Part shown: one piece after another, positions 5,616-36,302 of the stretch | How the letters are laid out: each line of letters opens with the position of its first letter | Numbering within the stretch: position 1 is the stretch's first letter | IMG/VR virus record: IMGVR_UViG_3300032770_000054 | Location: 1-39,338 of that record | Origin: a virus | Length of the DNA stretch: 39,338 nucleotides | Reading direction: 5' to 3' (one strand) | Notes under the pieces: generated by a model | The model's input: only the letters and a program-made list of their open reading frames with translations | Told to the model about the DNA's origin: nothing | Databases searched by the model: none | Translations under genes and position numbers: made by a program

Positions 5616-5893
5616 CTGAGGCGGTTGAGCGCGACCTGGCGGAGTGGGAGAAGCGGAAGCCTGGTGTGAGCGATTCGCTGTTGGCGGCGGCGTGTTTGTC
5701 GTTGGCGGCGGCGTGCGACGACCCGGGGACGCATCCGACGGCGTTGTCGAACTGTTGGAACAGTCTGTTGGCGATCCGGCAGGCGCTTGTGGCCGAGTTG
5801 CCGCCTGAGAAGTTGGAGGATTCACCTCTTGACGAGATCCGCGCTCGCAGAGCGGCCAAGCTTGCAAGAGCCGCGGGTGGTGTGGGTTCCTGA
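5573..5893 (+). CDS. Putative small terminase subunit
   Basis: The 106-residue product contains the segment HPTALSNCWNSLLAIRQALVAELPPEKLEDSPLDEIRARRAAKLA, similar in layout to small terminase subunits of actinophages, which bind the packaging site and hand DNA to the large subunit. The start is ambiguous: ATG 5573 (used here) or ATG 5609, which has AGGAGGAG 12 bases upstream. It overlaps the large terminase start at 5829 by 65 bases, supporting coupled expression. Confidence 0.6.
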   Translation: MGAKIQEEKFTGMVTEAVERDLAEWEKRKPGVSDSLLAAACLSLAAACDDPGTHPTALSNCWNSLLAIRQALVAELPPEKLEDSPLDEIRARRAAKLARAAGGVGS

Positions 5894-7262
5894 TGGTTCG
5901 CCGCACCCGGACGGTGTCGCTGCTTCTGAGCTGATCGCGGCTGCGGGGATCAAGCTCGAGCCGTGGCAGCAGTGGATTTTTGAGTCGTCGATGCTGGAGC
6001 GCGACGGGAAGTGGGCTGCGCCGGAGGTTGCGGGGGTGATCCCGCGCCAGAACGGCAAGTCGGAGCTCGCGATCGCCCGGATCCTGGCCGGCCTCTACGT
6101 TCTCGACGAGAACTTGATCATCTATACGGCCCATCTGGCGGACACGTCGTTGGAGATGTTTCGCCGGCTGATCGATTTGATCGATTCGCAGGATTGGTTG
6201 GCGCGCGAGGTGAAGCATGTGTGGCGCGCGAACGGGAAAGAACAGATCGAACTCAGGTCTGGGCAGCGTGTCCGGTTTCGAACCCGGACGAAGGGCGGCG
6301 GTCGCGGGTATGCGGGTGTCGACTGTGTGATCTTCGACGAGGCGATGATCTTCCCTGAGGCGTCGTTGGGGTCGATCTACCCGGTCGTTTCGAGGAGTTT
6401 GAACCCGCAACTCTGGTTTTTGGGGTCTGCGGTCGACCAGTTGGTCCACGAAGAGGGCCGCGTGCTCTCGAGGGTCAGGGATCGGGGGTTGGCGGCGGAT
6501 GATCCGTCGCTCGCCTACTTCGAATGGTCGCTCGAGTACGAGAAACCCGAGGATGTGCCGCACGAGGTCGCGAAGGATCCTGCGTCTTGGAAGGCCGCGA
6601 ACCCCTCGCGGATGATTCCGATGTCGCATATCGCGAACGAGCAGCGCACCCTGGAGCCCAGATCGTTCGCCGTCGAAAGACTTGGGGTTGGTGACTGGTT
6701 CGACCTTGAGGGTGAGGGGTCGGTCATCAACATCAACAGCTGGCAGAGGCTTGCTGACCCTGACGGACAGGTCGCCGGCGACCATGTTTTCGCGTTTGAC
6801 GTGTCCCCAGACCGCGCGTGGGCGTCCGTGTGCGTCGCTGGGAAGCGTTCTGACGGCCTCGCACAGGTCGAGGTGGCGGAACACCGTCGCGGGACCGGCT
6901 GGGTCGCAGAATGGCTCTCAGAACGCCAAGGAAACCGGGTGATCTGTGACGCGCGAGGCCCGGCAGGCTCGCTGATCCCTTCTTTGGAGCGTTTCGGGGT
7001 CCAGGTTGAGCCGGTTTCGACGCCGGAACACGTCAAAGCGTGCGGAATGCTCTATGACGCCGTCTCCCAAGGCACCATCCGCCACCTCGGAGACCCACTT
7101 CTGTCGGCGGCGGTGGTTGGGGCGAAGAAACGGCCGCTCGGAGACGCTTGGGCGTGGGCCAGAAACCCCTCGAGCGCCGACATTTCGCCTCTGGTCGCCT
7201 GCACGCTCGCTCTTTGGGGTTTGGAGCAGGCGACTGCGGAGGTTTGGGTAGGTAACTGGTAG
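5829..7262 (+). CDS. terL: Large terminase subunit
   Basis: DNA-packaging motor, 477 aa. The ATPase domain has the Walker A-like PRQNGKS (residues 72-78) and Walker B VIFDEA (167-172; D170, E171). The C-terminal RNase H-like nuclease shows FAFDVSPDR (D324), VICDARG (D374) and LGDAWAW (D439), the acid triad expected for metal-dependent cutting. TTG 5829 is chosen because GGAGG lies 9 bases upstream and homology begins soon after; the frame stays open further upstream inside the small-subunit gene. Confidence 0.95.
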   Translation: MTRSALAERPSLQEPRVVWVPDGSPHPDGVAASELIAAAGIKLEPWQQWIFESSMLERDGKWAAPEVAGVIPRQNGKSELAIARILAGLYVLDENLIIYTAHLADTSLEMFRRLIDLIDSQDWLAREVKHVWRANGKEQIELRSGQRVRFRTRTKGGGRGYAGVDCVIFDEAMIFPEASLGSIYPVVSRSLNPQLWFLGSAVDQLVHEEGRVLSRVRDRGLAADDPSLAYFEWSLEYEKPEDVPHEVAKDPASWKAANPSRMIPMSHIANEQRTLEPRSFAVERLGVGDWFDLEGEGSVININSWQRLADPDGQVAGDHVFAFDVSPDRAWASVCVAGKRSDGLAQVEVAEHRRGTGWVAEWLSERQGNRVICDARGPAGSLIPSLERFGVQVEPVSTPEHVKACGMLYDAVSQGTIRHLGDPLLSAAVVGAKKRPLGDAWAWARNPSSADISPLVACTLALWGLEQATAEVWVGNW

Positions 7263-7281
7263 CCCTGACGGGAGGGAAACC

Positions 7282-8247
7282 ATGCGAGTACGTGTTCTGG
7301 GTGCCGGCGGACCCGCCGGTGTCAACTGGTGCCGCGCCCTGCACAAGGCCGGCCACGAAGTGTTCGCCGAAGACGACGACCCGACCCACTTGGTCTGGGC
7401 TGCGCCGTACACGATGGAAGATCCGGGGATTTTCGGGCCGGACGTCGTCCATGCTGTCCCTGATTCGCTTGTCCGGGATCTTGTGTTGCGGAAGAACGTG
7501 GGCGCCTACCTGCCCGCAACGCTTCTCCCGGACCTCAGAGTTGTTAGCCGCTGCCAGCACAAGCTCGACACCATCCGGATACTGGAGCAGGCAGGCTGCC
7601 GCAGCGGCCCAGTTCTCATCCGCAACCCGCTACCCGACCATCTCCACCTCGCGAAGGACAAGTTCGGGCTCCCGTTCTGGCTCCGAGTGACTGTTGGCGC
7701 TGGTGCGAAGGGCGCGACCCTCGTCGAGGATCTCCGTACGGCGTTCCACTGGATCCGCTACTGGGAAACCAGGGGTGTGGAGTGGGAGTGGATCGCTGAG
7801 GAATACCTGCCCGGCCGCGACTATGCCTGGACTGGGATCTACAAGGACGGCGAGCTCGTGACGTCGTTCGCGCGGGTGCGGCTCGAGTACATCTACCCGA
7901 ACCTCGCACCATCCGGGCTGACGGGGACGCCGGCCAGGGCTCAGGTCGTCCACGACAGTCTGGTCAACAAGACAGCCGAAAAGGCTGTCGCTGCGGTTGA
8001 TGAGAAGCCGAACGGGATCTACGGGGTCGACCTGAGGGAATCCGGCCACCACACTCCTGTGGTGACAGAGATCAACGCTGGCCGGGGCGGCACAACGACG
8101 GGGTTGTGGGCACTCCACAGTGTGAATTTCGCTGACATCCACGCCAGATTGGCGGTCGGCGAACCTGTGGAGGCTCCGCAACGTGACGCGCTACCGGAAG
8201 GACTCGAGTTGAGACGCCACATCGACTGCGCAGCGGTGTTCGTATGA
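7282..8247 (+). CDS. ATP-grasp family ligase
   Basis: The 321-residue product resembles carbamoyl-phosphate-synthase/D-Ala-ligase-type ATP-grasp enzymes. It has an N-terminal Rossmann-like VLGAGGPAG (residues 5-13), a nucleotide-binding EEYLPGRDYAW (E174 onward) and catalytic metal-site elements YGVDLRE (D250) and EINAGRGG (E263, N265). Such enzymes join a carboxylate to an amine or thiol through an acyl phosphate; the substrate here is unknown. It has a good ribosome site (GGGAGGGAAACC) and overlaps the next small gene by ATGA. Its place between terminase and a glycosyltransferase suggests a role in modifying the virion or a precursor. Confidence 0.8.
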   Translation: MRVRVLGAGGPAGVNWCRALHKAGHEVFAEDDDPTHLVWAAPYTMEDPGIFGPDVVHAVPDSLVRDLVLRKNVGAYLPATLLPDLRVVSRCQHKLDTIRILEQAGCRSGPVLIRNPLPDHLHLAKDKFGLPFWLRVTVGAGAKGATLVEDLRTAFHWIRYWETRGVEWEWIAEEYLPGRDYAWTGIYKDGELVTSFARVRLEYIYPNLAPSGLTGTPARAQVVHDSLVNKTAEKAVAAVDEKPNGIYGVDLRESGHHTPVVTEINAGRGGTTTGLWALHSVNFADIHARLAVGEPVEAPQRDALPEGLELRRHIDCAAVFV

Positions 8248-8399
8248 GAGTCACCGTAGAAGACGACGCCGGGTTCGAGCTCTACTCGCACCAGTGCGAA
8301 TGCAACTCCATCCTCCAAGCCCTCCACCAGACCGCCGAACAGTTGCAGCAGGAGTTGTTGCGGCTTGGCGAGCTGCACATCAGGGCGAACCCGAAATGA
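8244..8399 (+). CDS. Small hypothetical protein (51 aa)
   Basis: ATG 8244 overlaps the ATP-grasp stop (ATGA) and the frame ends in ATGA with the next gene. The product MRVTVEDDAGFELYSHQCEC leads into a helix LQALHQTAEQLQQELLRLGEL. It is a typical small linker gene of tightly packed phage operons. Function unknown. Confidence 0.6.
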   Translation: MRVTVEDDAGFELYSHQCECNSILQALHQTAEQLQQELLRLGELHIRANPK

Positions 8400-9211
8400 A
8401 TCTTGTCCTGTTGTTGTCGTGGTATGAGGAGTCGCCGGCGTGGCTCGCGACGGTTGTGGCGGGGTACGGGAGGATGGTCGACCATGTTGTTGCTGTTGAC
8501 GGCGCCTACGCGTTCTTTCCGCAGGGCAAGCCGCGGTCGCATCCGGAGCAGGCGGAGGCGATCATGCAGACCGCCGAAGCGGCCGGGATCGGCTGCACGA
8601 TCCACCGGCCAAACTTCTTGTGGGACGGCAACGAAGTCCACAAACGCAACATGACCCTGAAGTTGGCGGCAGCCCATGACCCGGACTGGGTGATGGTCGC
8701 CGATGGCGACTATCACGTCACGAACTGTGACCCGCCGACCGTGCGCGGGATGCTCGAGGTGACCGACCTGAACGTCGCCACCTACACATTGGTCGACCAG
8801 CAGGACCCGTTGGCGCAGCCGGAGTTTGCGGCAGCGGCGATCCAGTCGCAGATCGAGACGGAGTGGCGCGACGAGATCCGCGACATCTACCGGTGGACAC
8901 CAGACCTCCAGTACGGGCCAGCCCACTACACCATCAGCGGGACCTACGGCGGGAAGAAACGCTGGGTGAAAGGATTCGGGACGAAAGGCCATGTCGCCCC
9001 CGACTACAAGGGCAGAATCGCCGACCCCTGTCTCGACCTCCGCGGCTCCCTGGTCGTCGTGCACCGGAACCGCGCCCGGCCGCTGCTACGCCAGGAGGCG
9101 GCCAAGAGGTATTACGCGGCTCGAGACGACGAGGCGATCGAGGACGTGACCGAACTGTACAAGGCCGAAGACGAAGCGGCGGAGGCCGAACGTGCGGCTG
9201 CGGCAGGCTAA
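8396..9211 (+). CDS. Glycosyltransferase (GT-A, family 2-like)
   Basis: The 271-residue product begins with a GT-A-like beta strand (MNLVLLLSWYEESPAWL), then VDHVVAVDGAYAFFP and a DxD-type metal and nucleotide-sugar site DGD at 103-105 (VMVADGDYHV). The C-terminus is charged and helical (KAEDEAAEAERAAAAG). It likely transfers a sugar to a virion protein or host surface polymer. ATG 8396 overlaps the preceding stop by four bases. Together with the ATP-grasp gene and the second glycosyltransferase at 12691, it suggests a virion-decoration pathway. Confidence 0.75.
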   Translation: MNLVLLLSWYEESPAWLATVVAGYGRMVDHVVAVDGAYAFFPQGKPRSHPEQAEAIMQTAEAAGIGCTIHRPNFLWDGNEVHKRNMTLKLAAAHDPDWVMVADGDYHVTNCDPPTVRGMLEVTDLNVATYTLVDQQDPLAQPEFAAAAIQSQIETEWRDEIRDIYRWTPDLQYGPAHYTISGTYGGKKRWVKGFGTKGHVAPDYKGRIADPCLDLRGSLVVVHRNRARPLLRQEAAKRYYAARDDEAIEDVTELYKAEDEAAEAERAAAAG

Positions 9212-9410
9212 ACGCGTCCGGATCCACCTCACAGACCCCCACCTACCCTCAGTCGAAGGACTGCTCCTGTCGAAAAGACACCGAGAACTCGCGGTCGGTG
9301 TCCCTGAACTGATTTCGGAGGCTGTTGCGGCGGGCGGCAAGCCAACCATCCTCGAATCCAGGCTTCTGGTCGTGCCCCTGGATCGTGTCGCTTTCTACGA
9401 GGTGATCTAG
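9192..9410 (+). CDS. Small conserved-looking phage protein (72 aa)
   Basis: Starts at GTG 9192, overlapping the glycosyltransferase end by 20 bases. Strand-rich sequence, VRIHLTDPHLPSVEGLLLS near the start and LESRLLVVPLDRVAFYEVI at the end. The ending resembles small proteins found just before the portal gene in other actinophages. Function unknown. Confidence 0.6.
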   Translation: MRLRQAKRVRIHLTDPHLPSVEGLLLSKRHRELAVGVPELISEAVAAGGKPTILESRLLVVPLDRVAFYEVI

Positions 9411-9616
9411 TGGTTGAGTTGAAGTTCACTGGCAATCTGCGGCGCTTACGCCTGCGCCCTGGTGACACGATCATCTGTGAATTACCCCCGGACTCCTATC
9501 CTGAACAGGCGGAGCGTTTACGAGAATGTTTACTGGAGTGTTTCCCCGACAATAAAGTCCTCTTGGTGGGCGGTGGCGCGCATCTTGTGGGGACGTTGAG
9601 AGGGGAAGAAGCATGA
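9410..9616 (+). CDS. Small hypothetical protein before portal (68 aa)
   Basis: GTG 9410 shares its G with the preceding TAG stop. The product alternates strands and a helix: LKFTGNLRRLRLRPGDTIIC, then PEQAERLRECLLECFPDNKVLLVGGGAH. It overlaps the portal start by four bases (ATGA). Its position suggests coupling to portal translation. Function unknown. Confidence 0.6.
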   Translation: MVELKFTGNLRRLRLRPGDTIICELPPDSYPEQAERLRECLLECFPDNKVLLVGGGAHLVGTLRGEEA

Positions 9617-11277
9617 TCGTCAAGGAGCGCGGCGGCCGCGAGGTCGAGCTCTACTCGTTTGCTCTCACCGACATGGTCCGGTGGGGGTACAACCAGCTTC
9701 GCACGCTCCAGTCCGGGTTCGGCGAACGCGAAATGCGTGGCGTCCCCGCCATTGCGCGGGCCGCCAGGATCCGCGCCGAAGCCGTCGCGAACCTCGACCT
9801 CGGCGTCTGGAAAGGCATGGGGCCTGACCGGGTCAAGGTCGAGACGTGCTGGCAGGACAAACTGTTCGACAACAGCCCCAACGACTGCCAGACCCGGTTC
9901 GACTTCTGGGAGACCGTCGAAGAATCGTTGGCGTACCGGGGGAACGCGTTCATCTGGAAGAACACGTCCGGCTCGAAGATTGTGGAGTGGTGGGCGCTCC
10001 ACCCGGACCAGGTGACACCGAAGAACGACGGCACCTATTCGGTGAAGGTCGCCCCCGGCTATGTCGATCCGACCAACAAAGGCCCGGGCGACTATCCCGG
10101 CCTGACGAACACGACGATCCTGCATATCCGTGGCCACGGCCAGGGCGGACAGTTGTTGGCGCCGTCGCCGGTGGAGCAGTTCCGGGATGCGATGGCCGGC
10201 CCCGTCGGCCGGCAACGCCACGAGGCACGCATGTGGCGCAGAGGTGTCGCAGGCCAGTTGGCGGTCACGTTCCCCGCGGGGATCTCCAAGGATCAGGCCG
10301 ATCAGTGGCGCGAAGCGTACCGCGCGAACTATGAGGGGACCGAGGGCGAAACCACCCTGGTGATGGGTGGTGGCGCCGAGATCAAGCCGATCGGGTTGAC
10401 GCCGGCGGACGCTGAGTTCGTCGAGATGAAGGTGTTGACCGCCCAGGACGCCTCCCAGATCATGGGCGTCCCCGCCAACCTCCTCGGGGTCAGCGTCCAG
10501 CAGAAGGGTACGCCGAACCTCGAACAGGACCTGATGGAGTGGCTCCGGTTCGGGCTCGGCCCCGAACTGAAACGCATCGAAGAAGCTTTGAAGGCGGACG
10601 AGCAGCTGTTCGGTTTCATGGGACGGCTGCAGTCGAACGTGGTCGGGTCGATGGGGATCTACCCGAAGTTCAACACCGACGACTTCGTCCGCGGCGACAA
10701 CCTCACGGAGGCGACGATCCTGGTGTCAGACGTACAAGCAGGCATCCTTTTGCCGGACGAGGCCCGCAACATCAAGGGCTACCCGCCACTCCCGGGCGGC
10801 GCAGGCAAGATCCCGCAGATCACCCCGGTTGGTGGAGCACCGAACGCCACCCCGCCAGCCCCTGGTGGGCATGCAGGCCCGCCGTTGCAGGCGCCCAAGG
10901 ACACCCCGGACGACATCCAGGCGGCACGTGTCCCGGATGTGCATGTGCATGTGCCGAACGAGATCCGGATGGACGGGTCGTCGTTGACGGAGGCGTTCAT
11001 GCGCCGCGACGAACAGATCGAAGACGCCCTCGAAAGGCTGGCTGTCCCGCCGATCGTGAACGTCCATGTCCCGGAGACGACGCTGCCGACCCCGGAGGTT
11101 CATGTGCCCGCACCGGAGGTGACGGTGAACGTCCAGCCGACCCCGGTCGAGATCCATGTGCCGGAGCAGCAGCTGCCGGACATCCACGTGAACGTTCCGG
11201 AGCAGGGAGACATGGAAGTCGAACGCGACAAGCGCGGCTTCATCACCCGCGTACGACGCGGACGAAAGGAGCAGTAA
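9613..11277 (+). CDS. Portal protein (HK97 family) with HVP-repeat tail
   Basis: The 554-residue product forms the dodecameric portal at the capsid vertex. Typical segments are VPAIARAARIRAEAVANL, AYRGNAFIWKN, EWWALHPDQVTP and the stretch from MKVLTAQDASQIMGVPANLLG to KGTPNLEQDLMEWL. After about residue 415 the tail turns into repeats with the theme V-H-V-P (VPDVHVHVPNEI, VNVHVPETTLPTPEVHVPAP, IHVPEQQLPDIHVNVPE), which likely form a beta-rich fibre-like extension. It ends with a basic segment TRVRRGRKEQ. ATG 9613 has GGGGAAGAA upstream. Confidence 0.9.
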   Translation: MIVKERGGREVELYSFALTDMVRWGYNQLRTLQSGFGEREMRGVPAIARAARIRAEAVANLDLGVWKGMGPDRVKVETCWQDKLFDNSPNDCQTRFDFWETVEESLAYRGNAFIWKNTSGSKIVEWWALHPDQVTPKNDGTYSVKVAPGYVDPTNKGPGDYPGLTNTTILHIRGHGQGGQLLAPSPVEQFRDAMAGPVGRQRHEARMWRRGVAGQLAVTFPAGISKDQADQWREAYRANYEGTEGETTLVMGGGAEIKPIGLTPADAEFVEMKVLTAQDASQIMGVPANLLGVSVQQKGTPNLEQDLMEWLRFGLGPELKRIEEALKADEQLFGFMGRLQSNVVGSMGIYPKFNTDDFVRGDNLTEATILVSDVQAGILLPDEARNIKGYPPLPGGAGKIPQITPVGGAPNATPPAPGGHAGPPLQAPKDTPDDIQAARVPDVHVHVPNEIRMDGSSLTEAFMRRDEQIEDALERLAVPPIVNVHVPETTLPTPEVHVPAPEVTVNVQPTPVEIHVPEQQLPDIHVNVPEQGDMEVERDKRGFITRVRRGRKEQ

Positions 11278-11712
11278 ATGGCGAGCTTCGTCAAGTTCTA
11301 CCAGTTCGCTTACGACCTCTCGGAGAAGGTCCACAACCTCAACAGCGACACCATCAACGTCGGACTGACGAATACCGCCCCCACAGCGTCGTCGAACAAG
11401 TTGTGGGCCGACATCACCGAGATCACCGCCCATAACGGCTACTCCGCTGGCGGCGCGTCCACGGGCGCGTCGGGTGGGACAGCGTCGGGGACGTTCACGC
11501 TGACCGGGACGAACGTCACCTGGACGGCGTCCGGGGGGACGATCGGGCCGTTCGAATGGGTGATCCTCTACAACACGTCCACCAGCCCGAACACGAAACC
11601 GCTGATCGGATACTGGGACTACGGGTCCGCGCTCACCCTCAACTCGGGTGACAGCTTCACCGTCCAGTTCAACGGTGGCGCGTCGTCGGGGACGATGCTG
11701 ACGGTCGCGTGA
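11278..11712 (+). CDS. Virion structural protein, possible decoration protein
   Basis: The 144-residue product is strand-rich: VKFYQFAYDLSEKVHNLNSD, INVGLTNTAPTAS, WADITEITAHNGYSAGG, then a beta part ending WVILYNTSTSPNTKPLIGYW and DSFTVQFNG. The same layout occurs in many phage structural proteins of about 140 aa that are often annotated as capsid or tail decoration. ATG 11278 follows the portal stop directly with AAAGGAG in the upstream coding sequence. Confidence 0.65.
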   Translation: MASFVKFYQFAYDLSEKVHNLNSDTINVGLTNTAPTASSNKLWADITEITAHNGYSAGGASTGASGGTASGTFTLTGTNVTWTASGGTIGPFEWVILYNTSTSPNTKPLIGYWDYGSALTLNSGDSFTVQFNGGASSGTMLTVA

Positions 11713-11867
11713 ACGACTGCTGCCAGGAAGAAGGCAGCCTGACCGAACCACAGCCCGTCGGGGACAGAGAGGATCTGCGTGTCCGCGAGTGTGTGGTGTG
11801 CGGCGCGAAACACTACGAGCTCGACGCAGACGCGTTCGAGCTGTTCGGTGAGGGCGCCGACCTCTAG
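11709..11867 (+). CDS. Small Cys-containing protein (52 aa)
   Basis: GTG 11709 overlaps the previous stop (GTGA). The product has an N-terminal CC and a CxxC knuckle (CVVCGAKHYELDADAFELF). It is too short for a complete zinc finger unless it dimerises. Small proteins of this type sit among head genes in related phages; function unknown. Confidence 0.6.
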   Translation: MNDCCQEEGSLTEPQPVGDREDLRVRECVVCGAKHYELDADAFELFGEGADL

Positions 11868-11875
11868 GAGGCCCG

Positions 11876-12694
11876 ATGGCTGACGTCAAAATCTCGGCGC
11901 TCCCCAGCGCATCCTCGGCCGCAGGCACTGACATCCTGGCCGCCGACCAGTCCGGGACGACCCGTGGTGTTACGGCTTCTCAGCTCGGCACCTATGTCGC
12001 AGCGAACTTCCCGGGCCTGTTGAACGTCCAGGTGTTGACGTCGACGTCGGCGAACCAGACCTACACTCCCACAGCGGGTACGGCGTCGTTCCTCGCCGAG
12101 TGTATTGGTGGTGGGGGTGCGGGCGGCAACACCCCGGGCGCCGCGTCCACGAACAACAAAGGCTGCGGCGGTGGCGGCGGCGGCGGCGCGTGCGTCCAGT
12201 ATTTCAACAACGCGATCGGCGGCACCTACTACTACTCGTGTGGCACGGGCGGGACTGTGGGGGCAGCCAACACGGTCGGCGGCAACGGTGGCAACACTAT
12301 TTTCGGCAACACTTCCAATAACTGCTTCTACGCGAACGCGGGCGGCGGTGTCGGCGGCGGATTCAACAACGCGACGGGCGCAGGATCGGGGTTCGCGGCT
12401 GGCGGCTCGGGTGGAACTCCGAACACCGGGATCGCGCTGATGCGCGGCATGGACGGCGAGGGCGGCTGGAAGGCCGGCAACAACGCGGCAGTCTCGGGCC
12501 TCGTCGAAGGCGGCGGCGGAGGCGCTGCTGCGAGAGGCGGCGGCGGCGGCCAGGGCGGCGGCGGAAGCGCGAACGCCTCGACGGCCGGAGGCAACTACGG
12601 TGGTGGCGGCGGCGGGAGCGGCTCCAACAACAACGCCACGAGCGCGGCTTCGGCGGGCGCCCAGGGCGTCATCGTCGTCTACGAGTTCCAGTGA
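11876..12694 (+). CDS. Glycine-rich virion protein (adhesin-like)
   Basis: The 272-residue product has an N-terminal segment MADVKISALPSASSAAGTDI, LAADQSGTTRGVTASQLGTY, common in phage fibre proteins, then a long Gly/Asn/Ala-rich region (for example GGGGAGG, GCGGGGGGGAC, GGGGGSG) and an ending GAQGVIVVYEFQ. Such regions can form polyglycine-II bundles like phage tip adhesins. An AGGAGG site precedes ATG 11876. It is unusual to find it among head genes, between portal and protease. Confidence 0.7.
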   Translation: MADVKISALPSASSAAGTDILAADQSGTTRGVTASQLGTYVAANFPGLLNVQVLTSTSANQTYTPTAGTASFLAECIGGGGAGGNTPGAASTNNKGCGGGGGGGACVQYFNNAIGGTYYYSCGTGGTVGAANTVGGNGGNTIFGNTSNNCFYANAGGGVGGGFNNATGAGSGFAAGGSGGTPNTGIALMRGMDGEGGWKAGNNAAVSGLVEGGGGGAAARGGGGGQGGGGSANASTAGGNYGGGGGGSGSNNNATSAASAGAQGVIVVYEFQ

Positions 12695-13458
12695 TGAGAA
12701 AGACAGTCTGGACTCTCAACATCGACGACTACGCCCCCGAACTGTGCGCGTGGACGTACCCGCTGTTGCGCCACTACGCCGACAAGATCGGCGCCGACTT
12801 CCAGATCATCGACGAACGCTGGTACCCGGACTGGCCGGTCGTCTACGAGAAACTCCAGATCCACGAGCGCGGCGCCAGCAACGACTGGAACATCTACATC
12901 GACTCGGACGCGCTCGTGCACCCGGACATGTACGACCTGACCGACCACCTGTCCAAGGGCACGGTGATGCACAACGGCCGCGACATCGCCGGCAACCGCT
13001 GGCGCTACGACAGATACTTCCGCCGCGACGGCCGCCATATCGGGTCGTGCAACTGGTTCACGATCGCCTCCGACTGGTGTATTGACCTGTGGGAGCCACT
13101 CGACCTCACCTATGAGGAGGCGCTCGAGAACATCTCGCTCGCCCACTGCGAGACCGCGAGCGGCGTGATGGATCCGGGCCACCTGATCGACGACTACACC
13201 CTCTCACGGAACATCGCGAAGTACGGGCTCAAGTTCCAGACGTTCCACGAATACAAGCAGACGATCGGCGATGGTGGCGACTATCTGTGGCACATCTACA
13301 CCGAACCCGTCCCGAAGAAGGTTGTGCAGATGATGAGTGTGCTGGTCAGTTGGAACATTGACCCCGATGATCTTCTCGAGGGACGGATCGGGCCGGTACG
13401 GGAAGAGACACGGGCTGCGATGGAGGCAACCAGTGAGCTGGCCGCCGTCGGCGGGTAG
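12691..13458 (+). CDS. Second glycosyltransferase (GT-A with DSD motif)
   Basis: The 255-residue product begins TVWTLNIDDYAPELCAWTYP, HYADKIGADFQIIDERWYP, then WNIYIDSDALVHPDMYDL, where D71-S72-D73 is a DxD-type site. This is like eukaryote-type GMA12/MNN10 or GT8-like enzymes that add hexoses. A Cys/Trp-rich middle (GSCNWFTIASDWCIDLW) follows. The start is GTG 12691 or ATG 12694; both overlap the preceding stop. Being between two structural genes suggests it glycosylates a virion protein. Confidence 0.75.
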   Translation: MMRKTVWTLNIDDYAPELCAWTYPLLRHYADKIGADFQIIDERWYPDWPVVYEKLQIHERGASNDWNIYIDSDALVHPDMYDLTDHLSKGTVMHNGRDIAGNRWRYDRYFRRDGRHIGSCNWFTIASDWCIDLWEPLDLTYEEALENISLAHCETASGVMDPGHLIDDYTLSRNIAKYGLKFQTFHEYKQTIGDGGDYLWHIYTEPVPKKVVQMMSVLVSWNIDPDDLLEGRIGPVREETRAAMEATSELAAVGG

Positions 13459-13461
13459 CCG

Positions 13462-14976
13462 ATGGCCATCACCTATGTAGGCGAGCGCGGCACCGGGGCC
13501 GCCACTCAGGCGAACCCCGCCACGCTGTCTGTCTCGTCGAACGCCACAGCCGGGAACACGATCATCCTGATCCTCGGCTGTCGCAACCAGCGCAACCTCC
13601 CGTCCGGTGTGACGATCACGGACTCCAGGTCTAACACCTGGAATCTCGACAACGCCGAAGAGGACAACTCTCTCAACAACCTGTCTCTGATCGCGTCGAC
13701 GAAACAGGACGGCGGCACTCTCCAGTCCGGCGACACGATCACGGTCACGTTCGGAACCGCCCCGACAGGGAACGTCTGCTACTTCCTCGAAGAGTTCAGC
13801 GGCATCCAGACGTCCGCGTACGCCCTCGACCGGACCGGCCAGGGCATCGACGACGTCACCACGAACGGCGCCACCGTCACCGTCGGCAGCACAACCCGGC
13901 AGGGCGTCGAGCTCGCGATCGTCGGGATGATGGTGAACGGCGGCCCCGGAGCCGTCACTCGGGACGCCACCTGGTCGAACTTCACGACCAGCGAACAGTA
14001 CGACACCGTCACTGGAAAATCCCTAGACGCCCAGTACCAGATACAAGCGTCGAAGGGGACGCCGTCCGCCACATACACCTGGACTTCGCAGGGCTCGAGC
14101 CGTGTCATCACCACCTATTTCTCGGTCGTCAACGGGCACATCCTCACCGAGGGTGGCGACTACATCGACACCGAGGGCAGCGACAGGCTCGTCACAGAGG
14201 ACTTCGTTGCCGCTGGCGGCACACTCAACGCCACAGCAGGGTCGGTAGCGGTCACCGGGTCGCAGGCAACATTAGCCGTACACCGCGTCTTCACCGCCTC
14301 GGCCGGTTCTATCGCAGTAACCGGGGCGTCGGCCACCCCGAACGTCAAGATCACCGCCACAGCAGGATCTGCCGCGATCAACGGGACCGCGGCAACGTTC
14401 GCGATACACCGCACACTCTCCGCCGCCGCGGGGTCTGTGACGGTAACAGGCGCCGCGGCGACACCCAACGTTGGGATCACCGCCTCGGCTGGTTCGGTAG
14501 CGATCAACGGGAGCCCGGTCACCCCGGCTCCGAAGATCACCGCTACCGCAGGAGCCGTTGCTGTTACGGGGTTCCAGGCGACGCTCGCAGTCCACAGGGT
14601 CTTCTCGGCTCTACCCGGCACCTTCACCATCACCGGGGACAACGCGACCCCGAACGTTGCGATCACCGCGTCGGCGGGGTCTGTCGCGATCAACGGTACC
14701 GCCGCCACACCAGCCGTAGCCATCACCGCCTCGGCTGGTGCGGTAGTGATCACCGGGAGCCCGGTCACCTTCTCCGGACTCCATGCCTACACGCTCAACG
14801 CGACAGCCGCGTCTGTGACGGTTTCGGGTAACGCAGCAACCCTGACGAAACAGACCGCCGGGGGTGGCGGGGCGACACCCACAGATGGCGGCGCCGTCGA
14901 ACAGCAACGGATCAGCCAGTACGTGAGCCGGCTCCGCGCAGAAGACGACCTAGTCACTGTCCTAGCGGGCTTGTAA
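13462..14976 (+). CDS. Repeat-containing virion protein, paralogue of the 23043 gene
   Basis: The 504-residue product has an N-terminal domain of about 225 residues (AITYVGERGTGAATQANPAT, then WYxxLEEFSG-like YFLEEFSGIQTS and DDVTTNGATVTVG). That domain is clearly homologous to the whole protein at 23043-23747. It continues with HILTEGGDYIDTEGSDRLVTED, ten repeats of 20-24 residues (next entry), a Gly-rich hinge and a charged end (QYVSRLRAEDDLVTVLAGL). It is probably a head or neck fibre. ATG 13462 lies four bases after the previous stop. Confidence 0.7.
   Translation: MAITYVGERGTGAATQANPATLSVSSNATAGNTIILILGCRNQRNLPSGVTITDSRSNTWNLDNAEEDNSLNNLSLIASTKQDGGTLQSGDTITVTFGTAPTGNVCYFLEEFSGIQTSAYALDRTGQGIDDVTTNGATVTVGSTTRQGVELAIVGMMVNGGPGAVTRDATWSNFTTSEQYDTVTGKSLDAQYQIQASKGTPSATYTWTSQGSSRVITTYFSVVNGHILTEGGDYIDTEGSDRLVTEDFVAAGGTLNATAGSVAVTGSQATLAVHRVFTASAGSIAVTGASATPNVKITATAGSAAINGTAATFAIHRTLSAAAGSVTVTGAAATPNVGITASAGSVAINGSPVTPAPKITATAGAVAVTGFQATLAVHRVFSALPGTFTITGDNATPNVAITASAGSVAINGTAATPAVAITASAGAVVITGSPVTFSGLHAYTLNATAASVTVSGNAATLTKQTAGGGGATPTDGGAVEQQRISQYVSRLRAEDDLVTVLAGL
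14224..14853 (+). repeat. Ten tandem 20-24-residue AGSVAxxGxxAT repeats
   Basis: The units share the pattern ITASAGSVAINGTAATP with variants such as FTASAGSIAVTGASATPNVK and LNATAASVTVSGNAAT. Units ending in AVHRV or AIHRT occur as the first, third and sixth. The pattern of Ala/Ser/Thr/Val strands suggests small beta hairpins stacked into a rod. The DNA is diverged, so copy number is probably fairly stable. Confidence 0.75.
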
Positions 14977-20462: not shown

Positions 20463-23043
20463 CAGCCTGATAGTCGAGATTCTCGGCAACGGGAAACAGT
20501 TCGCCCAGTCGATCGACGAGGCGTCGAACAAGACCGCGAGGCTGGGGAAAGCCGCCAAGATCGCCGGGACAGCGATCCTCGGCGGCCTCGCCTACGGGCT
20601 CGACAAGTCCGTGGAAGCGGCCGTCAAGGCTCAGACGTCGACCGCGCGGATGGACCAGGCGTTTAAGCAGTCGGGGTTGTCGGCGAAGACGTTCGCAGGC
20701 CAGATCGACCATGCCGAACAGTCCGCGCGGAATCTGGGATTCGCGAACTCCGATGTGCGGGAGAGTCTCGGCAGCCTGGTGATCGCAACCAAGAGCGGCA
20801 AGGAGTCGTTCAAAGATCTCGGCATTGCTGAGGATCTCGCGAGGTTCAAACATATCGGCCTGACTGACTCGACCAAGATGTTGACGACAGCGATGGCCGG
20901 ATCGACGAAGGCCGTCCACGCGCTCGGCCTCAACATCATCCCCGTCACGTCTGCGGTGGACAGGGTCAACCAAGAGTTCAAGGTTCACACTGGCCGCGCC
21001 TACGAGGCGGCGAAGGCAACCGCCGAACTGGCCGACAAGCAGGCAACCGCGAAAGAGATCATCGCCGCAGTCACCGACAAGGTTCATGGACAGGCGCAAG
21101 CGTTCGCCGAGACGGCCGCCGGGAAGATGCAGACATTCAAGGCGCAACTCGAATCCATCGGCGAGTCCATCGGCCAGGTGGTTCTGCCGGCGCTCGAGTC
21201 GTTCGCCAGCGTGTTGGCCAAGGTTGCGGGCTGGCTGGCGCAACACCAGACAGTCGCCAAGATCCTTGTCGCCGGCCTCGCCGCGCTCGGGGTGACTCTG
21301 GTCGCGATCATTCCGCTGGTGACCGCGTTCGGGACGGCGCTCGCGTTCGTAGCAGCCAACCCGATCGTCCTCCTCGTCGCCGGTATCGCCCTCCTCGCCG
21401 GCGCAATCGCCGCTGCCGTCCTCGCCCCCCAAAAGTTCGAAGCCGCCCTCGAAAAAATGGGGGTGTCGGCGGGGACAGCTAAGGCCATCGTCACCGACCT
21501 TCAAGGCGTGTTCACGGATTTCAAGGCGGTGGTTGAGGCGCTGCTTCCCACCATCGAAGCGATATTCGAGGGGATCGTCGAGGAGATCAAGGGCGCGTTC
21601 ACCGTTATCAAGGGCATCTTCGACGTGATCGACGGGCTCCTCCACGGCAACTGGTCCCAAGTCTGGACCGGGCTCAAGGACATCGTCTCCGGCTCCCTCC
21701 AGGCGATTGAGGGGTTGTTGCAGGCTGCGACGGCGGTGTTGGGGTCGATCATGACCGCGATCCTCGGCGCGATGTGGTCGGCTGTCCAGTCCGGTTGGCA
21801 GACCATCGAGAACTTCTTCGGCGGGATCGGCGGCGACATCACCTCAGCTATCGGCGACCTCGGCAGCCTCCTCGCCACCGCAGGCACCGACGTCATCTCG
21901 GGCCTCTACAACGCCGCCGTCACAGCATGGAACACGGCTACCTCCTGGTTCAAAGGGATCCCGCAGGCCATCCTCGCCGCGATCGGCGGGGTAGCCACCT
22001 TGCTCGCCCAGAAAGGCCAAGACATTCTGACGGGACTCTGGAACGGCGCGAAGAACGTGTGGTCGAACGTGGCCAGTTGGGTCGGCGGGATCCCAGGCAA
22101 GATCAAGGACGCCATCGGCGGCGTAGCCCAACTCCTCACCGACAAAGGCAAGGCGGTCCTCAACAGTCTCTGGGACGGCGCGAAGGACGTCTGGAACACC
22201 GTCAAATCATGGTTCGGCGATCTTGGTTCCAAAGCCCGTACCGCTGTCGGTGATGTGGGACGCCTTCTCTATGACAAGGGCAAACAGGTCCTAACCGGAC
22301 TCTGGGACGGCGCCAAGAACGTGTGGGCGACTGTGACCGGCTGGTTTAGAGACCTCGGCGGCAAGATCAAGGACGCGCTTGGTGATCTCAGCCGCCTGCT
22401 TTACAGCTCCGGGATCGCGCTGCTCAAAGGACTCGAGAGCGGAATCGTTTCCGAGGCGAAACACCTCTACAGTGTCGTGTCTGGGATCGCCGGCAAGATC
22501 GCCGGCTTCTTCCCGCACTCGCCTGCGAAGGAGGGGCCGCTCTCGGTTCCGATCAACTGGGGCGCCTACCTGACCGATGGACTCTCCCAGGGAGGCGAAG
22601 TCCTCTATTCGGGGATGGCGGCGATCCTCGGCACCCCGCTCGCGAACATCATGAGCGCGGCTCTCTCCTCCACGATCGTGGGCGTGATCCAGGCGGCCGC
22701 AGCCGGGATCCCCGATCTGGTTACGGCGACACTCGGCCAGCAGGCCGCAGGCGCTCCGCATGGCACGCTCAACCCGACTCCGCCACCCACGAAAACAACA
22801 GGCGGGACAGGCCTCATCCCGCATATGGCTGTCGGCGGGATCGTCCGCACCCCAACCCTGGCGCTGATCGGCGAGAAAGGCCCCGAAGCCGTTGTCCCGC
22901 TCAACCAGATGAACGGCGGCCCGCCCGTCTACAACTTCAACTTCCCGAACTATGTGGGGTCGAAGCAGGAGTTGACGAACATGATCCAGCAGCAGCTGCT
23001 CCGATTGCAGCTGCGCGGCGGCCAAGCCCTCCTGCCCGGCTAA
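20455..23043 (+). CDS. Tape measure protein
   Basis: The 862-residue product sets tail length. It starts at TTG 20455, overlapping the frameshift product by eight bases. Order: helical N-terminus, a hydrophobic stretch near residues 272-330 (ILVAGLAALGVTLVAIIPLV), four exact-length 44-residue repeats (483-658), then FFPHSPAKEGPLSVPINWGA, typical of tape measure C-termini, and GEKGPEAVVPLNQM. Hydrophobic segments may help make a DNA passage through the host membrane. Confidence 0.9.
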   Translation: MPNSLIVEILGNGKQFAQSIDEASNKTARLGKAAKIAGTAILGGLAYGLDKSVEAAVKAQTSTARMDQAFKQSGLSAKTFAGQIDHAEQSARNLGFANSDVRESLGSLVIATKSGKESFKDLGIAEDLARFKHIGLTDSTKMLTTAMAGSTKAVHALGLNIIPVTSAVDRVNQEFKVHTGRAYEAAKATAELADKQATAKEIIAAVTDKVHGQAQAFAETAAGKMQTFKAQLESIGESIGQVVLPALESFASVLAKVAGWLAQHQTVAKILVAGLAALGVTLVAIIPLVTAFGTALAFVAANPIVLLVAGIALLAGAIAAAVLAPQKFEAALEKMGVSAGTAKAIVTDLQGVFTDFKAVVEALLPTIEAIFEGIVEEIKGAFTVIKGIFDVIDGLLHGNWSQVWTGLKDIVSGSLQAIEGLLQAATAVLGSIMTAILGAMWSAVQSGWQTIENFFGGIGGDITSAIGDLGSLLATAGTDVISGLYNAAVTAWNTATSWFKGIPQAILAAIGGVATLLAQKGQDILTGLWNGAKNVWSNVASWVGGIPGKIKDAIGGVAQLLTDKGKAVLNSLWDGAKDVWNTVKSWFGDLGSKARTAVGDVGRLLYDKGKQVLTGLWDGAKNVWATVTGWFRDLGGKIKDALGDLSRLLYSSGIALLKGLESGIVSEAKHLYSVVSGIAGKIAGFFPHSPAKEGPLSVPINWGAYLTDGLSQGGEVLYSGMAAILGTPLANIMSAALSSTIVGVIQAAAAGIPDLVTATLGQQAAGAPHGTLNPTPPPTKTTGGTGLIPHMAVGGIVRTPTLALIGEKGPEAVVPLNQMNGGPPVYNFNFPNYVGSKQELTNMIQQQLLRLQLRGGQALLPG
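21901..22428 (+). repeat. Four tandem 44-residue repeats in the tape measure protein
   Basis: Each 132-bp unit encodes the theme GLWNGAKNVWSNVASWVGG, then IPGKIKDAIGGVAQLL, DKGKAVLN. The four units all have 44 residues and conserved tryptophans at positions 10 and 16. Changing the number of units would change tail length. Confidence 0.8.
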
Positions 23044-23747
23044 TGCCTGTCACCTATGTAGCCGAACGCGGCACCGCGGCCGCCACACAGGCCAACCCCG
23101 CCACCCTCTCGGTCACGTCGAACTGTGTCGCCGGTAACACGCTGATCCTGTGCATGGGCTGCCGCGACGCGCGCAACCTCCCCTCCGGGATCACCATCGC
23201 CGACTCCCGGTCAAACACCTGGAACGCCGACATCGAGGAGCAGGACAACTCGCTCAACAACTATGCCGGGATCTGGTCCACCCGGTACGACGGGGGGACG
23301 CTCCAGAACGGTGACAGCCTCACCGTCACGTTCGGGACGAGCCCCACCGGCCCGATCTGTTACATGCTCGAAGAGTTCAACGGCCTCTTGATCAGCGGGG
23401 CATTGGACCAGACCGGCCGGGCGATCGACGACGTCACCACCAACGGCGCCACCGCCATATGTAACGGCCCGATCGCGCAGCCTGAGGAGCTCGGGATCGT
23501 CGCGATGATGGTCAACGGTGGGACGGGAGTTGTTACCCGGGACGCGACGTGGACGGATTTTACGACGAGCGAAGTACTCGATTCGACGAACGGCAAGACG
23601 CTCGACGCGCAGTACAAGATCATCACGACTGGCGGCACACCGTCCGCGACGTACACATGGTCGGCCCAGGGGGCTGCACGGGTGATCGCGACCTATCGGT
23701 CTGTGGGGTCGGCAGGCCGCCCCCACCGTATGCCCCTCGGAGTCTAA
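23043..23747 (+). CDS. Virion protein, paralogue of the 13462 N-terminal domain
   Basis: The 234-residue product (PVTYVAERGTAAATQANPAT, NLPSGITIADSRSNTWNADI, YMLEEFNG, AIDDVTTNGAT, TRDATWTDFTTSEVLD) aligns along nearly its full length with residues 1-225 of the 13462 protein, which lies on the head side. It lacks the ten-repeat tail and ends RSVGSAGRPHRMPLGV. A beta-sandwich (concanavalin-like) carbohydrate-binding shape is possible. ATG 23043 overlaps the tape measure stop by one base. Confidence 0.7.
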   Translation: MPVTYVAERGTAAATQANPATLSVTSNCVAGNTLILCMGCRDARNLPSGITIADSRSNTWNADIEEQDNSLNNYAGIWSTRYDGGTLQNGDSLTVTFGTSPTGPICYMLEEFNGLLISGALDQTGRAIDDVTTNGATAICNGPIAQPEELGIVAMMVNGGTGVVTRDATWTDFTTSEVLDSTNGKTLDAQYKIITTGGTPSATYTWSAQGAARVIATYRSVGSAGRPHRMPLGV

Positions 23748-33963: not shown

Positions 33964-34064
33964 TCCGCGTCTACTGTCACGGCGTCCTATCGGTTGCTCT
34001 CCTGTTGCGGGATGGGACAGCGGTGTGTGGGTGCGGCCAACGGTTCAAGGCAGTGTCTCCGTGA
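33960..34064 (+). CDS. Tiny Cys-containing peptide (34 aa)
   Basis: GTG 33960 overlaps the preceding stop; the end overlaps the next GTG. The sequence MIRVYCHGVLSVALLLRDGT then AVCGCGQRFKAVSP has a CxC motif. Translation is inferred only from the overlaps. Confidence 0.4.
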   Translation: MIRVYCHGVLSVALLLRDGTAVCGCGQRFKAVSP

Positions 34065-34177
34065 AGCTGCGCCTCGATCACGCACATCTCGGCTGGAGCT
34101 CACCAGTCCCGCCCGAGGAGTCTTTGAAGCGGACGGTGGAATGGACTCTTGGGCATCCAGAATGGTTGTTGCCGTGA
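34061..34177 (+). CDS. Tiny peptide before second methyltransferase (38 aa)
   Basis: GTG 34061 overlaps the preceding stop; the end overlaps the methyltransferase GTG 34174. The sequence MKLRLDHAHLGWSSPVPPEE, SLKRTVEWTLGHPEWLLP has no recognised family. It may be mainly a coupling device. Confidence 0.4.
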   Translation: MKLRLDHAHLGWSSPVPPEESLKRTVEWTLGHPEWLLP

Positions 34178-34866
34178 TCTCGTACTATCAGGATGATTCG
34201 GTGACGATCTACCACGGCGACTGCCGGGAGATTCTGCCGACTCTTAGCGGGATCGGACTGGTTGTGACTGATCCGCCGTACACGTTCGGGTTGGCGTCCA
34301 CGGATCAGGAAGGCAAAGCTGGCGGCTGGGGCGACCTGATGAATAACGCCCTGTTCTACGGTGCGTGGCTCGCCGAGACGCGAAAACTCACGAACGCGCA
34401 GCAAGGCGCGGTTTGGGTGTTCAATTCGTGGCGGTCGTTTCCAGTGTTGGCTCGTGCTTCGTTTGAGATCAGATGGCCGATCACGTCACTGCTCGTCTGG
34501 GACAAGCGCGCACTTGGACTCGGCGGAGCGAAGGGGTTACGGCCAACCTATGAGCTAGTCGCCCTGTTCGCCCACGACACGTTCCAGATCAAGGACCGCA
34601 CAGTGAGAGATATCTGGACGGTTCCGCAGGGCGGCAGCAGACAGACGGAACATCCGGCCGAGAAGCCCGTGGATCTGCTTGGTCGCATCGTCCGCGAGTC
34701 CGGGATGAATGGTGCGGTTCTTGACCCGTTCGCAGGGTCAGGCTCCACGCTTGTCGCCGCTAAACGCGAAGGCCGCTGCGCGATCGGAATCGAGATCGAG
34801 GAACGCTGGTGTGAAGTTGCGGCTCAACGGTGCGCCCAGAATGTTCTAGATCTGGAGGTCGCATGA
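34174..34866 (+). CDS. Second DNA methyltransferase (DPPY type)
   Basis: The 230-residue product from GTG 34174 has VTDPPYTFG (D33-P34-P35-Y36), typical of N6-adenine or N4-cytosine enzymes, then a target region and DPFAGSGSTLVAAKREGR (184 onward), the AdoMet site. It is compact and lacks the LAGLIDADG insert of the 624 gene. HPAEKPVDLLGRIV before motif I is the usual family element. It likely modifies phage DNA against restriction. Confidence 0.85.
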   Translation: MISYYQDDSVTIYHGDCREILPTLSGIGLVVTDPPYTFGLASTDQEGKAGGWGDLMNNALFYGAWLAETRKLTNAQQGAVWVFNSWRSFPVLARASFEIRWPITSLLVWDKRALGLGGAKGLRPTYELVALFAHDTFQIKDRTVRDIWTVPQGGSRQTEHPAEKPVDLLGRIVRESGMNGAVLDPFAGSGSTLVAAKREGRCAIGIEIEERWCEVAAQRCAQNVLDLEVA

Positions 34867-35156: not shown

Positions 35157-35356
35157 ACTACGAAGACCTTGACGCTGTGGAGCTCCGCGCGGAACTGGAC
35201 GACTGGACCGCCCGCACCATCAAGTGGGCCGACGACCTGGCGAACGCTATCGACGGCCACGATCTGATCGAGGCGGCGTTCATGGTGCACGGCTACCGGC
35301 AAGCCAGGATGCAGGTCAAGAAGATCCGCCATGCCATGCAGGTGAGTGTGGCGTGA
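35153..35356 (+). CDS. Small helical protein (67 aa)
   Basis: GTG 35153 overlaps the preceding stop and has GGGAGGG upstream. The product NYEDLDAVELRAELDDWTAR, TIKWADDLANAIDGHDLIEA, AFMVHGYRQARMQVKKIRHA is all helical with heptad-like spacing. Function unknown. Confidence 0.55.
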   Translation: MNYEDLDAVELRAELDDWTARTIKWADDLANAIDGHDLIEAAFMVHGYRQARMQVKKIRHAMQVSVA

Positions 35357-35511
35357 CTCCGCGGCAGGCGAGATTGTGGCTCGAGGCCGAGGAACTCAAC
35401 CGCGAGGCGGACGAGCTTATGCGCCTGAACCCGGTCATGTTGCGGAAAGCCGCAACCCAAAAACGGCTACAGGCGATCCGGCTGAAACAACAAGCAAAGG
35501 AGACGGTGTGA
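35353..35511 (+). CDS. Small helical protein (52 aa)
   Basis: GTG 35353 overlaps the preceding stop (GTGA). The sequence TPRQARLWLEAEELNREADE, LMRLNPVMLRKAATQKRLQA is a charged amphipathic helix. It also overlaps the next gene by GTGA. Function unknown. Confidence 0.5.
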   Translation: MTPRQARLWLEAEELNREADELMRLNPVMLRKAATQKRLQAIRLKQQAKETV

Positions 35512-36302
35512 GCGTCATAGACGAAAGGCTCGTCTACCTCGGACCACTCAAGCTCGAGAAAGGCTCGCACGATCCGCCGAACAACGGGCTCGTCCACGCC
35601 TGCGTCATGGAAGCCGTCGCCTATGTGGCCGGGGAACCGTTCTCGGATCATCCCGAGTGCGCGTCACCCGTTCTTGGCGCGTTCCTGCGGTCGTGGAACG
35701 ACTCGCTCCTGGACGCGGACAGGCAGATGTTGAAGCCGCTGATCCCGCGGCTCGTCGGCACGAAAGCACCCGCCAGGGTTGAGGAGAAGCGGGCGTGGAT
35801 GGCGACCGACTGGCTCGCCCGCGAATGCGCACCCGCGTTCCTGCGGCTCGCTGGGCTGACCGAGCATGCCGAGACGCTGGAGGGGCTCGCGGCGTTGACG
35901 ACCGCGAAGCGCGCCGAGAAGGCACAGCCTCAGTTGACCGCAGCCAGGGACGCAGCCAGGGCCGCAGCCTGGGACGCAGCCTGGGCCGCAGCCGGGGCCG
36001 CAGCCAGGGACGCAGCCTGGGCCGCAGCCAGGGACGCAGCCAGGGCCGCAGCCGGGGACGCAGCCTGGGCCGCAGCCGGGGACGCAGCCTGGGCCGCAGC
36101 CGGGGACGCAGCCGGGGACGCAGCCGGGGACGCAGCCGGGGACGCAGCCTGGGCCGCAGCCTGGGCCGCAGCCTGGGACGCAGCCTGGGCCGCAGCCGGG
36201 GCCGCAGCCAGGGCTGCAGCCAGGGCCGCACTCGAACCGACCGTCAAGCAGCTACAGCAGTCGGCGCTGCTGCTGGTCGACCGGATGATCGAGGCCAGAT
36301 GA
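35508..36302 (+). CDS. Conserved phage protein with Ala-rich 12-bp repeat domain
   Basis: The 264-residue product from GTG 35508 (AAGGAGACG upstream) has an N-terminal domain of about 140 residues (PPNNGLVHACVMEAVAYVAG, PECASPVLGAFLRSWNDSLL, PLIPRLVGTKAPARVEEKRA, WMATDWLARECAPAFLRLAG) and a tail of 24 four-residue units AxxA (next entry), then VKQLQQSALLLVDRMIEAR. The N-terminal theme occurs in other phages of GC-rich bacteria, next to recombination genes. Function unknown. Confidence 0.7.
   Translation: MSVIDERLVYLGPLKLEKGSHDPPNNGLVHACVMEAVAYVAGEPFSDHPECASPVLGAFLRSWNDSLLDADRQMLKPLIPRLVGTKAPARVEEKRAWMATDWLARECAPAFLRLAGLTEHAETLEGLAALTTAKRAEKAQPQLTAARDAARAAAWDAAWAAAGAAARDAAWAAARDAARAAAGDAAWAAAGDAAWAAAGDAAGDAAGDAAGDAAWAAAWAAAWDAAWAAAGAAARAAARAALEPTVKQLQQSALLLVDRMIEAR
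35940..36227 (+). repeat. 24 tandem 12-bp units encoding Ala-Ala-[R/W/G]-[D/A]
   Basis: Every unit reads GCA GCC nGG GnC, where the first n is A, T or G (never C) and the second is A or C; one unit ends GCT. Variation is confined to these two bases. The encoded tail is Ala-rich with Arg, Trp or Gly at one site and Asp or Ala at the next, likely helical. Copy number is probably unstable. Confidence 0.85.

Follow-up and report, generated by a model that had tools for sequence, protein, structure and literature searches.

An ATP-grasp ligase paired with a glycosyltransferase among the head genes of an uncultivated virus, a candidate for a mobile virion-glycan cassette

Phage heads are known to be glycosylated, and the chemistry of their decoration has mostly been guessed from glycosyltransferases. 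In mycobacteriophages, capsid and tail proteins are reported as glycosylated (PMC12363180, citing Freeman 2023). The head operons of Omegavirus (cluster J) mycobacteriophages (Thibault gp11-gp19, Courthouse gp15-gp21) lie 3′ of the capsid gene and contain a glycosyltransferase surrounded by sugar-tailoring enzymes, with no gene annotated as ATP-grasp. An ATP-grasp enzyme and a glycosyltransferase do meet in a surface-glycan pathway of Campylobacter jejuni. There, the C-terminal ATP-grasp domain of Cj1438 couples glucuronic acid through an amide to serinol phosphate or ethanolamine phosphate, after which the phosphate is removed by the HAD enzyme Cj1435 (PMC11800379); Cj1438 is described as TupA-like, an ATP-grasp family other than that of the ligase reported below, is fused to its own glycosyltransferase and acts on capsular polysaccharide. 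In the open-access literature, searched by title and start of the abstract, we found no description of an ATP-grasp/glycosyltransferase pairing at phage head genes, and the accessible part of a jumbo-phage survey (PMC7824862) refers to R2K ATP-grasp peptide ligases and to RNA ligases, and not to the family studied here.

The window, that is, the whole stretch of DNA that was analysed, is an entire virus record of 39,338 bases (IMGVR_UViG_3300032770_000054). Like the Omegavirus operons, it carries a homologous glycosyltransferase (∼32-34% identity, tblastn) among head genes; unlike them, it places this gene between terminase and portal together with an ATP-grasp ligase. The genes of the locus that are given here with coordinates lie on the + strand. 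The left flank is the terminase large subunit (5787-7262; phrog_9, 1.8e-64), whose listed ORF begins at TTG, the true start being unsure, and the right flank is the portal gene (9613-11277; PF04860, 1.1e-57); both identities are secure. Between them come the ligase gene (7282-8247, 321 aa), an ORF of 51 aa with no function assigned (8244-8399), the glycosyltransferase gene (8396-9211) and two small genes, of 72 aa (9192-9410) and 68 aa, that separate it from the portal, so that the glycosyltransferase stands among head genes. The ligase ORF is open throughout without internal stop, and a Shine-Dalgarno-like GGGAGGG (7270-7276) precedes its ATG by five bases. An ATGA overlap joins the ligase stop to the start of the 51-aa ORF, and another joins the stop of the latter to the glycosyltransferase ATG at 8396, which is most likely the true start rather than the in-frame GTG further upstream used by the mechanical ORF. 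A first-pass annotation of this DNA had proposed an ATP-grasp ligase between terminase and portal, coupled through the 51-residue gene to a glycosyltransferase; the open frame, the overlaps, the neighbours and the profile and model described below bear out both statements. Terminase relatives among annotated phages belong mostly to actinobacteriophages, which makes an actinobacterial host likely.

Comparison with another viral contig (L007) revealed the borders of the inserted or deleted unit. L007 carries a terminase, a 72-aa gene and a portal that are 63%, 61% and 56% identical to their window counterparts; the three genes are consecutive, the 72-aa homologue lying directly 3′ of the terminase with nothing between. 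Since L007 has the flanking genes without the ligase, the 51-aa ORF and the glycosyltransferase, we regard these three genes as a cassette. Judged from gene order, the trio is an insertion at, or a deletion from, the junction between the terminase and the 72-aa gene, which overlaps the glycosyltransferase end and forms the right border. The window ligase gene and its 97%-identical copy in contig L002 are separated by 40 synonymous and 16 nonsynonymous changes (dN/dS 0.12). For the glycosyltransferase gene the comparison with L002 gives 42 and 3, respectively, whereas the 2 synonymous and 0 nonsynonymous differences of the 51-aa gene are too few to weigh. By these substitution counts, purifying selection is acting on both the ligase and the glycosyltransferase genes.

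When searched as a single protein (P0001), the ligase produced a weak match to PRK12767 (NF009402), with an E value of 7.5e-5 and a score of 21.7 bits where the cut-off is 218. By sequence it is a distant relative of this equivalog, below the curated cut-off, and not a member. To our knowledge, PRK12767 proteins have no established function. The same single-protein searches gave no match in Pfam, PHROGs, the genome contigs or the phage records (where relaxing the limit to E 10 brought up one chance match alone). In the PDB they hit antibody chains alone, and among the viral contigs one near-identical contig. Cellular homologues then supplied a usable profile, from which a 27-member family alignment (A9) was built. 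The AlphaFold model obtained with this alignment shows a complete two-lobed ATP-grasp fold (pLDDT 91.2), and the top rows of both Foldseek and VIA are all ATP-grasp enzymes. The structure search that had been suggested to find the nearest family led to amino-acid ligases (YwfE/BacD, 3wnz, VIA Z 24.4), the CarB-like 2pn1 (24.2), through which the fold is shared with the PRK12767/CarB-like proteins, and PylC (4ffr, 22.9), with PurK-type enzymes also among the best. Because VIA rows within 1 of each other count as tied, the fold leaves the ligase substrate unfixed. On the strength of the model, 7282-8247 is predicted to encode a complete ATP-grasp ligase, for which we propose ATP-dependent carboxylate-amine ligation. 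Conservation across viral copies is consistent with an active-looking enzyme: R135, P177, G178, G190 and R200 are kept in 34/34 copies, K94 in 33/34, and D250, E263, N265 and R268 in all 33 copies that reach them, one contig (L145) ending before the acids. K94, R135, D250, E263, N265 and R268 are presumably the ATP/Mg residues, an assignment that follows the general pattern of the ATP-grasp fold. Loss of the key acids in relatives, named at the outset as a ground for rejecting the ligase, was therefore not what we found.

We next considered how widely the family occurs. Two profile scans of viral contigs returned 11 and 31 loci and yielded 33 further copies on uncultivated virus contigs, that is, 34 with the window, in 19 clusters at 85% identity. 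Five family members, used as queries against 50,697 phage records, gave no match, and no PHROG is matched as a ligase; thus, annotation based on isolates misses this family. The earlier view that such an enzyme is unusual in a head module holds for the isolate records searched and fails for uncultivated viruses. In 22 of the 34 copies and 8 of the 19 clusters (window/L002, the L147 cluster, L151, L154, L155, L158, the L160 cluster and L163), the ligase is followed by a phrog_7009 glycosyltransferase, either adjacent or after one gene, which answers the question of co-occurrence in other viruses raised by the first-pass annotation. A small methyltransferase takes the place of the 51-aa gene in L154, L155 and L158, whereas in the L147 cluster, the L160 cluster and L163 the two genes adjoin directly, with 4-base overlaps in the latter two. 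A terminase lies directly before the ligase in 15/34 copies and 5/19 clusters (window, L002, L145, L155, L158 and ten of the L160 cluster), and in the L147 cluster and L163 the pair is immediately 5′ of the capsid gene. Overall, one or more matches to terminase, portal, protease or capsid occur at 28 of the 34 viral loci, although for L172 and L173 this rests on a capsid match of only ∼1e-4. Head-gene matches are missing from L146, L159, L174 and L175, whose surroundings are nucleotide-sugar clusters with a DegT match, as well as from L156 and L162, located beside other glycosyltransferase-like genes. Some of the head-gene, methyltransferase and nucleotidyltransferase queries derive from loci inside this tally, or inside the tally of glycosyltransferase loci given below, and are self-matching; independent confirmation exists for the L147 capsid, the L151 terminase and the L153 portal, the L153 terminase not being among them. 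Neighbour genes were called with a home-made gene caller that mis-called some frames.

Eleven of the 19 viral clusters have no phrog_7009 gene next to the ligase. Among these, L145 ends inside the ligase and L144 ends ∼500 bases after it, and the other nine carry other glycosyltransferases or sugar genes, some of them recognised by eye or below Pfam cut-offs (as are some neighbours in L146, L153, L156, L157, L159 and L172-L175). Glycosyltransferases, sugar-tailoring enzymes and head genes thus adjoin the ligase elsewhere, and not the unrelated neighbours that would have spoken against the coupling. Two further observations concern these loci. L153, from an unrelated virus, has a terminase-to-portal cassette (7131-14497) with acyltransferase-like, deacetylase-like, ATP-grasp and GT-B-like genes, most of these names being given by eye. 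A second small family of GT-like phage proteins (LVILNPREI... / LLVLNPRDI...), below the Pfam cut-off, is present in L157 (11319-11978) and, upstream of the glycosyltransferase, in L059 and L069.

The partner enzyme of the window matches phrog_7009 with an E value of 1.2e-32 over residues 1-197 of 271 and contains a DGD motif (D103, D105). Its model has a GT-A fold (pLDDT 87.3) whose nearest solved structures are the ThuS/SunS peptide glycosyltransferases, the S-glycosyltransferases of glycocins (Z 16.7 and 14.7; next other family, 13.7), yet the best superposition (rmsd 3.1 over 196 residues) has 9% identity. This likeness of the model would suit a protein acceptor without proving one. Homologues among the phage records are all from mycobacteriophages (49 records). 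In the three neighbourhoods examined (WXIN, Thibault and Courthouse) the homologue lies among head genes, and in the two Omegavirus genomes, Thibault and Courthouse, it closes the annotated glycosyltransferase/methyltransferase operon of the head module. We extended the analysis to 85 further phrog_7009 loci, made up of the best 80 of 144 viral matches plus 6 genome loci, minus L003 (the same contig as L002), and not dereplicated. A terminase, portal, protease or capsid gene was found within 7 kb at 84 of them, from which we conclude that phrog_7009 is a head-module family. The ligase was present at none of the 85, while a Gfo/Idh/MocA oxidoreductase occurred within 2.5 kb in 12 and a nucleotidyltransferase-like gene in 2. 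The ligase is hence dispensable for the glycosyltransferase and is one of several interchangeable tailoring modules. In L005 (virus) and L095 (a Streptomyces contig), a nucleotidyltransferase-like gene (9282-10010 in both) with identical starts lies 5′ of the phrog_7009 gene. The structural module of the window holds a second glycosyltransferase-like gene (12691-13458, + strand) unrelated to the phrog_7009 partner, recognised by eye from a YIDSD motif and with no Pfam, PHROGs or NCBIfam match; phage records yield a single match to it, from a marine virus without annotation (38% identity over 72%), and its product is a candidate further glycan enzyme.

Outside viruses, we searched 396 genomes, all from the bacterial phylum to which the Fodinicola genome belongs and which we take to be Actinomycetota. 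Ligase homologues were detected in 9, and all 7 strong ones were taken for analysis. Where context was available, the strong copies are surrounded by genes for surface sugars, including glycosyltransferases, epimerases and DegT aminotransferases. Of 6 evaluable loci, 5 have a HAD hydrolase directly 3′ of the ligase (L107, L108, L109, L111 and L112, and not L113; L110 ends), as with the HAD partner Cj1435, and the setting as a whole resembles, by analogy, a uronic-acid amide pathway. Queries with these HAD proteins gave no match in the window or in any of the 8 ligase-glycosyltransferase clusters, and neither a uronic-acid pathway gene nor a HAD phosphatase was found beside the window ligase. 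Lacking the HAD gene, unlike Cj1438/Cj1435, the phage cassettes would require a non-phosphorylated amine or a host phosphatase. The closest cellular copy (L107, 45%) has a Gfo/Idh/MocA gene directly 5′ of the ligase, as does phage contig L151. In the tree, the window, L154, L155, L144 and L157 form a well-supported viral group next to L107; the L147/L151/L160/L163 group is placed elsewhere, and cellular rows separate these two glycosyltransferase-partnered groups. We do not claim that two viral lineages captured the ligase independently, as an AU test did not reject a single viral clade (p 0.305). Over the 8 clusters, the distances of ligase and glycosyltransferase are weakly correlated (r 0.44, Mantel p 0.03), in keeping with a pairing that persists while its parts get exchanged.

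Taking all this into account, we put at about even the chance that the gene encodes the carboxylate-amine ligase (amidoligase) of a mobile virion-glycan cassette. The product of this cassette is probably an unusual sugar that decorates the virus particle. In the mechanism that we propose, and for which we infer the substrate, the step order and the virion protein that gets modified, ATP would activate a carboxylate as an acyl phosphate, most likely on a host-derived sugar acid or sugar-acid nucleotide. An amine, which might belong to an amino acid, an amino alcohol or an amino sugar, would attack the acyl phosphate to give an amide, and the metal-dependent GT-A enzyme would transfer the tailored sugar to a head protein; alternatively, the glycosyltransferase may add the sugar first and the ligase then amidate it. 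This proposal draws on the predicted fold, the kept active-site residues, the overlapping genes, the phrog_7009 pairing that recurs at head genes and the sugar-pathway surroundings of relatives in viruses and cells, and also on the ThuS/SunS-like partner, the Cj1438/Cj1435 analogue and mycobacteriophage virion glycosylation. Counted against it are the missing uronic-acid and HAD genes beside the window ligase, the 0/85 phrog_7009 loci with a ligase, the 11/19 clusters with no phrog_7009 neighbour, the r of 0.44 and the TupA-like nature of Cj1438. From the three options originally offered for the ligase, namely a peptide or amino-acid conjugate, a sugar or peptide donor and modification of a virion protein, the evidence thus favours a route in which a sugar is tailored and then placed on a head protein.

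The head-module site might instead serve merely for late expression, with the cassette tailoring the host surface or making a diffusible metabolite during infection or lysogeny, as in superinfection exclusion. PHROGs files phrog_7009 under moron/host takeover, and the cellular relatives, like viral L146, L159, L174 and L175, sit in nucleotide-sugar clusters with DegT aminotransferases. We nevertheless consider this unlikely, given the head genes within 7 kb at 84/85 glycosyltransferase loci, the fact that we noticed neither a flippase nor a membrane gene in the cassette, and the little time that late expression would leave for a surface change. Another reading, to which we assign a distinctly small probability, is that the ligase attaches amino acids directly to a virion protein, in the manner of RimK or tubulin ligases, and that the glycosyltransferase is a separate decoration enzyme of the same cassette. 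Profile A9 matched RimK/LysX-type and CarB structures in the PDB (best E 1.7e-8 and 1.8e-8), as well as 2pn1 chains, and the best single match was a RimK/LysX-type ligase (3vpd, 1.7e-8); the location among head genes would also agree with such an activity. But RimK family matches concern 3/27 members, compared with 18/27 for NF009402 (E up to 0.01), the structure resembles small-molecule ligases (YwfE/BacD, PurK, 2pn1, PylC) more closely, and the cellular relatives have HAD and Gfo/Idh/MocA enzymes as neighbours within polysaccharide clusters.

The 51-aa gene had been given a special role as the link between the two enzymes, and this part of the first-pass annotation is not supported. The gene occurs only in the window virus and the near-identical L002; no counterpart was found in the other 7 ligase-glycosyltransferase clusters, among the tested genes upstream of other phrog_7009 loci (best E 2) or in the 50,697 phage records, and other cassettes have a methyltransferase, or nothing, at this position. 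This distribution makes it very improbable that the 51-aa product is a ribosomal peptide modified by the ATP-grasp enzyme and a SunS/ThuS-like glycosyltransferase, as a phage-borne RiPP or peptide tag, despite the enzyme-peptide-enzyme order with overlapping frames, the closeness of the partner model to glycocin glycosyltransferases and the two cysteines (CEC) of the 51-mer; a conserved precursor peptide beside the ligase, as in graspetides and other RiPPs, is not seen in the other clusters or the phage records. We also considered the 51-aa gene as a remnant of the methyltransferase present in its place elsewhere and rejected this, as no similarity between them was seen. Finally, some phages glycosylate modified bases and the window has two N6/N4-type DNA methylase genes, but hypermodification of viral DNA bases by the ligase and glycosyltransferase is scarcely credible, as the relatives are located in surface-sugar clusters and a scan covering part of the window ORFs turned up no gene for a hydroxymethylase, TET/JBP or C5-methylase.

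Returning to the virion-glycan cassette, we tentatively suggest, at somewhat less than even confidence, that many uncultivated tailed viruses carry an enzyme making amide-linked (aminoacyl or amino-alcohol) sugars as their own head-glycan module, related to bacterial surface-polysaccharide enzymes, with phrog_7009 as the hub for swapped modules (ATP-grasp, methyltransferase, Gfo/Idh/MocA and nucleotidyltransferase). If this were true, heads would carry a class of amide-sugar decoration new for phages; we know of no description of such a decoration on phage heads. The link between a ligase and one glycosyltransferase family, seen in several viral lineages, points to amide-altered sugars, and shows a head-module locus that gathers sugar enzymes like those of cellular polysaccharide clusters. 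The ligase and the glycosyltransferase form a two-enzyme system that is small enough to be rebuilt in vitro.

Other features were observed along the window. The two N6/N4-type methylase genes (PF01555) lie near each end of the record (516-2366 and 33994-34866), and the first product (616 aa) has an insert between two methylase stretches that looks by eye like a LAGLIDADG-type homing element or an intein. The proteins encoded at 13462-14976 and 23043-23747 share their start (TYVGERGTGAATQANPATLSV / TYVAERGTAAATQANPATLSV), a duplicated domain that in one copy is followed by repeat units. At 35346-36302, where other frames are open too, the C-terminus is highly repetitive and rich in alanine, aspartate and tryptophan (AAWDAAWAAAGAAARD...).
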